A stretch of 52,424 nucleotides of DNA from contig JAJECN010000007.1 in the NCBI GenBank assembly GCA_022821965.1, positions 1-52,424 on the forward strand, read 5' to 3'. The position numbers and the translations under genes were made by a program. Below the pieces are notes generated by a model that saw nothing but the letters and a program-made list of their open reading frames with translations, was not told where the DNA came from and did not search any database. Source of the stretch: Candidatus Poribacteria bacterium. Its GTDB lineage: Bacteria > Poribacteria > WGA-4E > WGA-3G. Shown here in pieces: positions 24,350 to 51,922 of the stretch; position 1 is the first letter of the stretch, and each line of letters begins with the position of its first letter.

Positions 24350-24394
24350 TGCCTTACCGAACCGCAAGGTAAATTAGAAAAATGATTTTTGAAT
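24350..24394 (+). repeat. 45-bp direct repeat, copy 2 (functional start)
   Basis: Identical to copy 1, 116 bases downstream. It holds the AAGGT ribosome-binding core and the true ATG (24382) of the second permease. Bases 24279-24349 between the copies contain no other recognised signal. Confidence 0.85.
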
Positions 24395-25221
24395 TGATTC
24401 CAAGCACTTTACGAATGGCAACACCGTTAGGATTCGCTGCACTCGGCGGAATTTATTCGGAGCGCGCTGGCGTAATCAACCTTGCCTTGGAAGGTATGAT
24501 GCTTATAGGGGCTTTCGGTTATGTTATCGGAACACAAGCTTCCGGGTCAGTATGGATCGGGTTACTTGTCGGGATAAGTTTTGGGTTCGTGTTGGCACTA
24601 CTCCACGCTGTTGCCACGATTACCTTTCAGGCAGAACAGATTGTCACCGGGGTCGGCATTAATATTCTCGCATTAGGGGTTACAGAATACCTTTTAACGA
24701 CCTCTGAGCAGGTTAGTGGTCTTCCACAGTGGCAACTACCACTTATCGGTTCCTACGGTTTTATCGTCTATTTGCTACCCGTCTTGATGGTGATAAGTCA
24801 CATTTTCCTGTTTAAAACACCGTGGGGCTTGCGATTGCGTGCTGCTGGCGAATCAACAGAAGCACTCGAAGCACTCAGCCTGAGCCGAGTAAAATGGCAA
24901 TATTTTGGGGTGCTATTCAGCGGTATCTTGGCAGCAATCGGCGGCTGTTTTCTGGCATCCGAAGTTCACTATTTCACAAAGGGGATGACGGCAGGGCGGG
25001 GCTATCTCGCACTCGCAGCTGTTATCTTTGGGAACTGGCGTCCGTTGAGTGGCGTAGCAGCATGCTTCCTTTTCGGATTTGCCACCGCTTTGGAACTCGC
25101 GAACCGATGGAACATTCCGGGGCAACTGCTCAACAGTTTGCCATATATCTTAACAATGATCGTTCTCGCTGGATTGGTAGGCACATCGCGTCCGCCCGCG
25201 AGTTTAGGGAAAATGAAATGA
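24382..25221 (+). CDS. ABC transporter permease, YufQ/NupQ-type (BMP family)
   Basis: This 279-residue permease has the second-subunit signature LRMATPLGFAALGGIYSERAG then VINLALEGMMLIGAFGYVIG, and the ATPase-docking loop RLRAAGESTEALEALSLS. It completes the membrane pore of a nucleoside or simple-sugar importer with the preceding gene. Translation starts within a duplicated repeat. Its TGA (25219-25221) abuts the TGA of the convergent wzc-like gene (25222-25224) with no spacer, leaving no room for a terminator between them. Confidence 0.9.
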   Translation: MIFELIPSTLRMATPLGFAALGGIYSERAGVINLALEGMMLIGAFGYVIGTQASGSVWIGLLVGISFGFVLALLHAVATITFQAEQIVTGVGINILALGVTEYLLTTSEQVSGLPQWQLPLIGSYGFIVYLLPVLMVISHIFLFKTPWGLRLRAAGESTEALEALSLSRVKWQYFGVLFSGILAAIGGCFLASEVHYFTKGMTAGRGYLALAAVIFGNWRPLSGVAACFLFGFATALELANRWNIPGQLLNSLPYILTMIVLAGLVGTSRPPASLGKMK

Positions 25222-32934: not shown

Positions 32935-34527
32935 ATGTCAAATCCAAATCTAAAATTGCATATACAGCGGGACCAACTTACGTGGTTTTTGGACCTACTT
33001 CTGGACGAAAAGGAGATCTTCCAATTAAGTGCTTCCACCGGCATTGTCCTTGATGTGGATCGCCTGTATGCGCTATCAAGACGGGAACTACTTGTAAACC
33101 TAACTGACGTATTTTTGGGTGTGGTTGGCACAGCAGAACCTGAAATAAAAAATTCCGAAGCCTCAATTGAAGTGCAAGTCAGCCAATTCCTTACTGAAAA
33201 GGCGCAGGATGCAATCTCACGAGTCGGCTATATGGAAATTTCCGAGATCGAAACGTTCTTCAGAACGTCCGAGGTCCTCATAGAGGGCGGCGACTTTGGC
33301 GAAGTCGTCTGGGCACTTCTCAGCGATGAACGTTCCGCAGTCGTTGAACACGGCTACAAACTCCTCAATACAACATACGAATCCATAGAAGTCGTACATA
33401 CCAACGGACGGGCGGACCTCGCAAGCATAGAGCAATTAGAAGAAATAGGCTCTCGGTACGCCGACGACTTAGAAGGCGAACAGCAACAGAGCGAGGTACC
33501 CGACCCAAAGATCGGGCACCTTGAACAGCAGTTAGCCGACTCTAAAGCGGACTATACCTCGCTTGAGCAGAAACATAACCGATTAAATCAACAGCGCGCG
33601 TTTCTATTAGAGGAAAACAAGGGGCTAAAAACGAGAGCGGAAGCGCACGATGGAAACGAGAAACGGCTAAAGACGCTTGAACAGGAAAATCAAATACTCC
33701 GCGAAAAGGTAGCACAATATATTGAAGACACCACTGAGTTACAGCAACTTGCCAACGAACGCGACCGGCTCCTTGCTGAAAAGGAACGGATGGCAGAACA
33801 ACTGAAAGAGTACGAACAAATCAAATCCGCTAAGGAAGCATTCAGTACCGACCTCAAATTAGTTGAGGAGGCGATCTACAAAGGGCACCAAGGGCTTGAG
33901 GACTTTCAGACCACTTTAGATAGTCACTTCGACATCTTGGAAAATTGTCATCAAACGGCGCGAGGTGCACTGAACCAGATTCGCCAAACCCTTACTTATT
34001 TAGATGATACACAGCTGCTCTCTGAAGGCGAGAGTCCTTACAATCTAACGACTGAACAGCCTCGCGTTGGTGTCTTTGTTGATGTCCAAAACATGTTTTA
34101 CGCTGCCAAAGATCGGTATGGCAGGAGAGTCGATTACATCAAACTACTTGATCTGATCGTCGGTCCGCGCTACCTTATGGGTGCTTATGCTTATGTTGTC
34201 CAGATACCGGAAATCGACCAAGCCCCCTTTCTGTCGCTTCTTGAACACAACGGATATACCATTAAGAGCAAAGATTTACGCTTACGTGGCGACGGTTCCG
34301 CAAAGGGTGATTGGGATGTCGGTATCGCGGTGGATGTCGTTTCAATGCTTGGTTCATTAGATGTCGTCATCTTAGCGAGTGGTGATGGTGATTTCTGCCC
34401 ACTTGCCGAACTCATCAAACAACAGAGTAAACGGGTGGAGGTTGTCGCTTTTGAACACAACACCTCTATGGATTTACAACAGATCGCAGACCAGTTCTAC
34501 CCAATCGGAGACGAACTGCTCATCTGA
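32935..34527 (+). CDS. Coiled-coil NYN-domain (LabA-like) putative RNase
   Basis: A 530-residue protein of three parts. Residues ~1-165 are a helical N-terminal domain I do not recognise. Residues ~185-320 are a long charged coiled coil. Residues ~376-528 are a NYN/PIN-like LabA domain with the acidic pocket visible: Asp-x-x-Asn in VGVFVDVQNMF, KGDWDVGIAVDVV, and ASGDGDFCPL. NYN domains with these aspartates are metal-dependent ribonucleases. No membrane segment is seen. The combination of a dimerising coiled coil with a terminal nuclease suggests an RNA-cutting complex, perhaps in stress or defence; that is inference. Confidence 0.82.
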   Translation: MSNPNLKLHIQRDQLTWFLDLLLDEKEIFQLSASTGIVLDVDRLYALSRRELLVNLTDVFLGVVGTAEPEIKNSEASIEVQVSQFLTEKAQDAISRVGYMEISEIETFFRTSEVLIEGGDFGEVVWALLSDERSAVVEHGYKLLNTTYESIEVVHTNGRADLASIEQLEEIGSRYADDLEGEQQQSEVPDPKIGHLEQQLADSKADYTSLEQKHNRLNQQRAFLLEENKGLKTRAEAHDGNEKRLKTLEQENQILREKVAQYIEDTTELQQLANERDRLLAEKERMAEQLKEYEQIKSAKEAFSTDLKLVEEAIYKGHQGLEDFQTTLDSHFDILENCHQTARGALNQIRQTLTYLDDTQLLSEGESPYNLTTEQPRVGVFVDVQNMFYAAKDRYGRRVDYIKLLDLIVGPRYLMGAYAYVVQIPEIDQAPFLSLLEHNGYTIKSKDLRLRGDGSAKGDWDVGIAVDVVSMLGSLDVVILASGDGDFCPLAELIKQQSKRVEVVAFEHNTSMDLQQIADQFYPIGDELLI

Positions 34528-51031: not shown

Positions 51032-51085
51032 GACGCAGACAACACAAAGCGTCTTACAAAAAATGACAAGGAGTTATAACTAAAG

Positions 51086-51922
51086 ATGGAAACCTATAAA
51101 GGTTATGAAAATCCACAATTGGTTATCTCTGCTGAGGAATTGAAAGGCACACTTGACGATCAGACGTACTGCCTCGTCGATACCCGACCAACCTATGAAT
51201 ATATCCAAGGACACATTCCTGGGGCACTTCATTTAGATTTGTTTGGGTTGAGCCTTATTGACACTCGCAAAGAGACTTTCGATACCTTTATGTGGATGAT
51301 AGCATACCTCTTTCAGCAACGCGGACTCGATCCGAGCAAGCCGATTGTATGGTATGAAGACATCTCAGGAACGCGCGCCTCGCGAGGATTTTGGTTCTGC
51401 GAGTACTTGGGACACCCTGAAACCCGTCTATTGGACGGCGGCTTCAAAGCATGGTTAGCAGCAGATGGACCTGTAAGTACAGCCGGTGTCGAACCACCGG
51501 AGGTGCCACCCTTCCCAATAAATCCAAAACACGATATCCACATGGATGCTGATGTAATCCGCGTCCTCCTAAACCGAACTGACTTCGTTCCGCTTGACAC
51601 GCGCACAGATGATGAACACTATGGCAGGGTCGCTCGCGCTGAACGCGCAGGTGCGATTCCGGCTTCGATCCATATTGAGTGGCTCAATAATCTCGATGAA
51701 GCAGGGGCTTTTAAACCGGCTGATGAACTCCGGCAGATGTACGAAAATGTCGGTATCACACCGGAAAAGCAGGTTATGTGCTACTGACAGGGCGGCTACC
51801 GCTCTTCACAAGCCTATTTGGCGTTGCGGCTCTTGGGTTACCCAAAGGTAAGCAACTACATTGGCTCGTGGAAAGAGTGGGGTGACCGGCTGGATTTGCC
51901 GGTCGAAATTCCAGAAGCTTAG
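51086..51922 (+). CDS. Two-domain rhodanese with in-frame TGA at the active-site codon (candidate selenoprotein)
   Basis: A thiosulfate/3-mercaptopyruvate sulfurtransferase-type protein. Domain 1 ([23 protein letters not shown]) has the usual non-catalytic loop. Domain 2 ([24 protein letters not shown]) should carry the catalytic loop Y-C-Q-x-G-x-R. The frame instead reads Val-Met-Cys-Tyr, TGA (51785-51787, codon 234), then [18 protein letters not shown], and ends at TAG (51920-51922). The part after TGA continues with the family ending [15 protein letters not shown], giving 278 codons, the normal length. TGA thus replaces exactly the catalytic Cys. Reading it as selenocysteine is inference; a nonsense mutation is the alternative. 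AAGGAG lies 12 bases before the ATG. Confidence 0.72.
51785..51833 (+). promoter_or_regulatory. Candidate bacterial SECIS region downstream of TGA
   Basis: Directly after TGA, 51789-51795 can pair with 51799-51805 (7 bp with one G-U, 3-base loop). A second stem, CAAGCC with GGC-G-TTG (51809-51814 and 51820-51826, one bulged G), places an apical TATTT loop 28-32 bases from the TGA, the usual distance for a bacterial SECIS. Neither loop shows the canonical early G, so the assignment is tentative. Confidence 0.35.

Follow-up and report, generated by a model that had tools for sequence, protein, structure and literature searches.

A two-domain rhodanese gene of Candidatus Poribacteria, which are associated with sponges, carries an in-frame UGA at the codon for its catalytic residue. 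We consider it very probable that this codon is decoded as selenocysteine (Sec) by the organism's own SelA, SelB, tRNA-Sec and SelD. We further propose, at a probability of about 0.5, that a hairpin some 100 nt downstream would act as a remote SECIS, brought in by a conserved long-range helix that restores its effective spacing from the UGA. Both the prediction and the engineering of bacterial selenoproteins assume a SECIS 16-37 nt from the UGA (PMC13188914, PMC10778597). The gene lies in a stretch of 52,424 nucleotides (MAG contig JAJECN010000007.1 of assembly GCA_022821965.1), hereafter called the window.

An in-frame TGA at the catalytic position of a two-domain rhodanese

The gene and the elements that define its reading frame are as follows.

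51070..51073, + strand: GGAG, probable ribosome binding site, 12 nt 5' of the ATG (read off the sequence)
51086..51922, + strand: two-domain rhodanese gene (SseA/RhdA-like sulfurtransferase), assigned by two PF00581 matches and by relatives in the PDB
51785..51787, + strand: in-frame TGA, codon 234, very probably Sec at the catalytic position; TGA in 54/54 Sec-type orthologues, a Cys codon in three relatives

The frame consists of 233 codons, the TGA, 44 more codons and a TAG at 51920-51922, and its product has 278 residues when UGA is read as Sec. The first-pass annotation of this DNA had described a single TGA at codon 234, preceded by Tyr, followed by QGGYRSS and with 44 codons beyond it; a second reading gave the identical frame, with VMCY*QGGYRSS around the TGA. 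A standard ORF call indeed stops at 51787, as had been pointed out, and the ORF list accordingly ends the gene there. Upstream of the gene lies a MATE-type transporter in the window and at one other locus (L039), and at a further locus (L075) the neighbour is a seryl-tRNA synthetase-like gene (all named from sequence by eye). At the loci read, the neighbour genes varied between lineages and no conserved operon was found.

Pfam family PF00581 matched the protein twice, with the TGA in the second stretch, and no NCBIfam model scored above its cut-off. Alignment with the solved structures 1e0c (Azotobacter RhdA), 1uar (Thermus) and 3aax (mycobacterial) places the TGA at their catalytic Cys, which bears out the position first assigned to it. 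In an AlphaFold model (pLDDT 86), whose closest PDB match is 1e0c, residue 234 lies between a strand (229-233) and a helix (235-249), the position of the rhodanese cradle; the protein has both the fold and the active-site loop of the family.

Two other cysteines were considered. Cys105 in the first domain (region with Cys29, 51190-51192, 51398-51402) is invariant in 11 of 11 aligned proteins, Sec and Cys forms included. An essential CxU redox pair with Cys232 was ruled out, as several TGA orthologues have Ser at 232.

The TGA codon is conserved among Poribacteria

Orthologues (E up to 1e-50) were found in 70 of the 85 genomes of the phylum; 67 have one TGA and three have none. The TGA orthologues are full-length and range down to 66% identity. 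Among the distinct Sec-type coding sequences that were aligned, all 54 have TGA at codon 234, and the three relatives without it have a Cys codon there (TGC in L079 and L083, TGT in L085). The aligned rows contain no further stops and no frameshifts. The homologues thus show TGA or TGC/TGT at this codon and none of the scattered stops that, according to the first-pass annotation, would have spoken against its reading.

Between two orthologues (L009 and L075), the nonsynonymous difference fell from 0.211 before the TGA to 0.073 beyond it, and the synonymous difference from 0.789 to 0.492. Judged from these comparisons, purifying selection after the TGA is strong. The gene combines two marks of a selenoprotein gene, a TGA aligned with Cys of homologues and coding selection that continues past it.

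A nonsense mutation in a pseudogene, or a miscalled TGC or TGT, would account for the truncated gene that standard annotation gives. Such an explanation is exceedingly improbable: 67 genomes share the codon, among them single-contig assemblies with chromosome titles (L039, L041, L046 and L057), the frame is otherwise intact, and selection acts strongly beyond the TGA. Because a single in-frame TGA occurs in full-length orthologues of so many genomes, sequence conservation argues that its presence at codon 234 is not chance.

Without exception, the 54 Poribacteria Sec genes and the 17 Sec rhodaneses of other lineages use CAG at codon 235 (51788-51790). Gln is mostly CAA in the rest of the Poribacteria gene, and CAG at this position is perhaps a context effect on UGA decoding.

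The genome encodes the selenocysteine machinery

All four components named for checking in the first-pass annotation were found in the same genome: selA (600 bits), selB (349 bits), selD (359 bits, carrying an in-frame TGA within a KCAGU motif) and selC, the tRNA-Sec gene (78 bits, anticodon tca), which adjoins selB. SelD (L097, G000:C15:4585-5508) is itself a Sec protein, as in nearly all relatives, and has a hairpin within the normal range of its TGA. No tRNA-Sec match was obtained in four members of the genus (G024, G030, G033 and G034). In one of these, G030 (96% complete), a full selA and tRNA-Sec were not detected, though the TGA rhodanese and TGA selD are kept. The missing genes are probably gaps in draft assemblies. 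Two Cys-type relatives (G037 and G040) still have tRNA-Sec and a TGA selD; their Cys codon is therefore not a consequence of loss of the Sec system.

Reading of the UGA as a standard amino acid, through a reassigned code or a near-cognate tRNA, would also explain the open frame, and nothing else was found in its favour. It is very unlikely. Of 35 large ORFs in the window, 9 terminate at TGA, and the code is therefore not a reassigned one; the full Sec machinery is present; and relatives have their catalytic Cys at this position, the usual counterpart of Sec. Two window ORFs (24382-25221 and 32935-34527) end in TGA, with open frames of 84 and 82 codons beyond it.

Decoding as Sec, as originally suggested, is thus very likely, because the TGA is conserved, the machinery is present and purifying selection after the TGA is strong; the Cys relatives support it as well.

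UGA recoding always competes with termination. The codon might for this reason serve as a regulated switch, with a 233-residue protein lacking the active site made when selenium is scarce and the full enzyme made when it is available. The first rhodanese domain is complete before the UGA, which would suit such a role; nothing in our analysis shows a function for the short form, and we regard the switch as unlikely.

No in-range hairpin fits the bacterial SECIS model

The bSECIS model places the apical loop 16-37 nt from the UGA (PMC13188914). Its criteria comprise an apical loop of 3-9 nt, an upper stem of 4-16 bp, a G in the first two loop positions and an energy of -7.5 kcal/mol or lower. 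Every one of the 54 Poribacteria rhodanese rows lacked an in-range hairpin as stable as -7.5 kcal/mol. In selD of Poribacteria, in-range hairpins of at least 4 bp occurred in 21 of 21 genes, and in 8 genes their energy was -7.5 kcal/mol or lower. An Rfam scan around the rhodanese gene gave nothing relevant, and folding only the first 56 nt, the stretch proposed in the first-pass annotation, gave an unconvincing z of -1.5. The region where a SECIS had first been sought, 51785-51840, therefore holds no in-range hairpin that fits the bacterial model; the conserved candidate structure spans 51799-51904.

Numbering RNA positions from the U of UGA, we also weighed a further SECIS candidate, the hairpin of nt 5-21. 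It is 98% paired across the alignment and was rejected, as it shows no double changes, has a predicted probability of 3%, has no conserved G in its loop, which lies beside the UGA, and is absent from other Sec lineages.

A conserved long-range RNA fold lies downstream of the UGA

Synonymous variation in the Poribacteria rhodanese gene is low at codons 231-250 and 261-272. Pair scanning identified a long-range helix (P1), a hairpin (P3) and the inner helices of a rod between the strands of P1.

51799..51806, + strand: P1, 5' strand of the long-range helix (nt 15-22); pairs in 54/54 rows, C-G to U-A change at 18/93
51873..51880, + strand: P1, 3' strand (nt 89-96), partner of nt 15-22
51819..51831, + strand: rod helices, 5' side (nt 35-36, 40-43 and 45-47), 95-98% paired
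51847..51860, + strand: rod helices, 3' side (nt 63-65, 68-71 and 75-76), partner of the 5' side
51884..51904, + strand: P3 hairpin, candidate remote SECIS (nt 100-120), 99.7% paired, C-G to U-A change at 102/118

A further compensatory change, G-C to A-U, was found at 36/75. The changes at 18/93 and 36/75 fall on third codon positions on both sides, and both sites of 36/75 are synonymous. In P3, a 7-bp stem (nt 100-106 with 114-120) carries a 7-nt loop, UGGAUUU in the window (51891-51897). The loop consensus is UGGAUYU, in which two synonymous sites are nearly fixed (G108 in 54/54 rows, U111 in 53/54).

Employing RNAalifold on 126 nt, we obtained -27.96 kcal/mol, compared with about -7.9 kcal/mol for permuted synonymous codons (z about -8); elsewhere in the rhodanese gene, z reached at most -3.6. 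Over the whole fold, 99.0% of cells were paired, and 21 cells showed double changes, versus 4.0 in shuffles and no more than 5 when the fold was slid along the alignment. Ensemble folding gave mean pair probabilities of 0.90 for P1 and 0.93 for P3, and the energy of P3 was -11.1 to -13.1 kcal/mol in the four rows folded. With random synonymous codons, 6% of sequences formed the complete P1 and 1.7% the complete P3; the full set of elements arose in about 0.015% at most.

The protein sequence (the R-S-S and K-E-W codons) largely dictates six of the eight P1 pairs. On the tree, about three compensatory events were counted at 18/93 and one at 102/118, and a tree-based test of covarying pairs did not reach significance with so few independent events. 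The Poribacteria Cys genes have lost parts of the fold (P1, 6/8; P3, 6, 3 and 4 of 7). A Cys homologue outside Poribacteria (L110 and L162, in G181 and its sister G403) has P1 at 8/8 and P3 at 6/7 over the 126 nt from codon 234. Its codons in this stretch are very like those of the Sec genes, and its pairing is possibly a relic of a former Sec state, a result of transfer or a coincidence. On comparative grounds, a long-range fold in the Poribacteria rhodanese mRNA is well supported, and its role as a SECIS is what we infer from it.

P3 has the loop and stem that the bSECIS model prescribes (7-nt loop and 7-bp stem in 53/54 rows), as well as its loop G and its stability. It departs from the model in spacing: along the sequence, its loop lies 103 nt from the UGA rather than 16-37.

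Sec rhodaneses of other lineages carry a canonical hairpin

A search beyond the phylum revealed that homologues in G221, G358 and G131 also have TGA as codon 234; in the class of G221, a TGA rhodanese is present in 16 of 18 genomes. G115 was rejected as a further case, its one TGA falling outside codon 234. Plasmid matches were all below 60% identity, the 20 matches listed being annotated as sulfurtransferase or rhodanese-like, and viral contigs gave no rhodanese matches.

A minimum of three Cys/Sec changes on supported branches was needed to account for a tree built from 55 proteins. Sec occupies the site in three separate groups, and the Poribacteria Sec clade is nested among Cys sequences; whether Sec was gained or lost depends on the rooting, and L109 sits on a long branch. 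If separate lineages changed from Cys to Sec at this one rhodanese site, this would point to a real advantage of selenium in sulfur transfer.

All 17 Sec rhodaneses outside Poribacteria have a hairpin at nt 14-30, ACCGUGC-GGC-GCACGGU, which in L109 takes the compensated form ACCGUUC/GAACGGU. Its loop lies 17 nt after the UGA; of the three Sec groups, two have an ordinary SECIS hairpin, 16-17 nt after the UGA. The TGA rhodaneses of the G221 class and G131 resemble the window protein in fold and in Sec position, at 40-46% identity; they differ from the Poribacteria gene in having this canonical hairpin with its GGC loop, and stand apart in the tree. In three of the TGA rhodaneses (L107, L120 and L126, from G221, G387 and G388), the open frame extends over 487-584 aa, possibly through fusion to another domain.

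A possible remote SECIS

Based on the fold, we propose that the UGA is recoded through an RNA structure within the last 40 codons, made up of P1, the rod and, directly after them, P3. The rod would take about 80 nt out of the path, leaving about 14 unpaired nucleotides (nt 4-14 and 97-99) between the UGA and P3. Counting its own ascending strand, the loop of P3 would then have an effective distance of about 21-23 nt from the UGA, inside the 16-37 nt range. SelB carrying Sec-tRNA would bind P3, and P1 with the rod would serve to bring P3 into its range. P3 is favoured as the recognition site because the tip of the rod is variable and the loop of P3 is nearly invariant.

Sec insertion might instead depend on a SECIS that went unrecognised in the roughly 45 nt nearest the UGA, the distal rod and hairpin being an unrelated mRNA element for stability, 3'-end protection or translation rate. 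Some bacterial SECIS elements do fit no model (PMC13188914). Synonymous variation is also low immediately downstream of the UGA (codons 231-250), the nt 5-21 hairpin is conserved there, and the Cys homologue in L110 and L162 retains most of the distal pairing. Against a proximal element, these invariable sites belong to the rod and to the 5' strand of P1, the defects described above count against the nt 5-21 hairpin, and the in-range hairpin lacking in Poribacteria is present in every Sec rhodanese elsewhere. We hold a proximal SECIS to be a possible but somewhat doubtful explanation.

If P3 does serve as a remote SECIS, its origin would be separate from that of the canonical SECIS of the same protein in other lineages, perhaps because active-site coding after the UGA leaves no room for a hairpin. 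A SECIS about 100 nt away, folded back by a long-range helix, would be unusual for bacteria. Distant elements delivered in this way would explain some selenoprotein genes missed by SECIS-based tools, and would suggest a way to keep the SECIS clear of active-site codons in bacterial selenoprotein production.

Comparison with known systems

A two-domain rhodanese containing Sec is already known as a kind of protein. In 2005 a Sec 'rhodanese-related sulfurtransferase' of COG2897 was described from the Sargasso Sea (PMC1088965); it was counted again in the GOS data (PMC2398784), and a 2026 review lists Sec rhodanese as form 4, UxxG, MCY3690685.1 (PMC13188914). Among the papers searched, none connects Poribacteria with a rhodanese selenoprotein. 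Likened by description only, the window protein shares with the COG2897/SseA Sargasso type two rhodanese domains, Sec at the catalytic Cys of the second, the U-x-x-G motif (here U-Q-G-G) and many Cys homologues. Unlike the Sargasso families, for which SECIS-like stem-loops just after the UGA were reported, the Poribacteria gene has no in-range one.

With Azotobacter vinelandii RhdA (1e0c) and other Cys rhodaneses, the protein shares the fold, about 31% identity and the place of the active-site residue; it differs from RhdA in having Sec rather than the catalytic Cys, and UQGGYR rather than CQTHHR as its active-site loop. Judged from family chemistry, the enzyme would most likely follow the ping-pong mechanism typical of rhodaneses: Sec234, as a selenolate within the cradle loop U-Q-G-G-Y-R, would take sulfane sulfur from a donor and pass it on to a thiol or another nucleophile. 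The selenium-based sulfurtransferase envisaged in the first-pass annotation can reasonably be inferred on this basis.

Compared with the consensus bSECIS, P3 is alike in its stem, in a loop with G at position 2 followed by another G, and in its stability; it is unlike in lying behind a conserved long-range helix.
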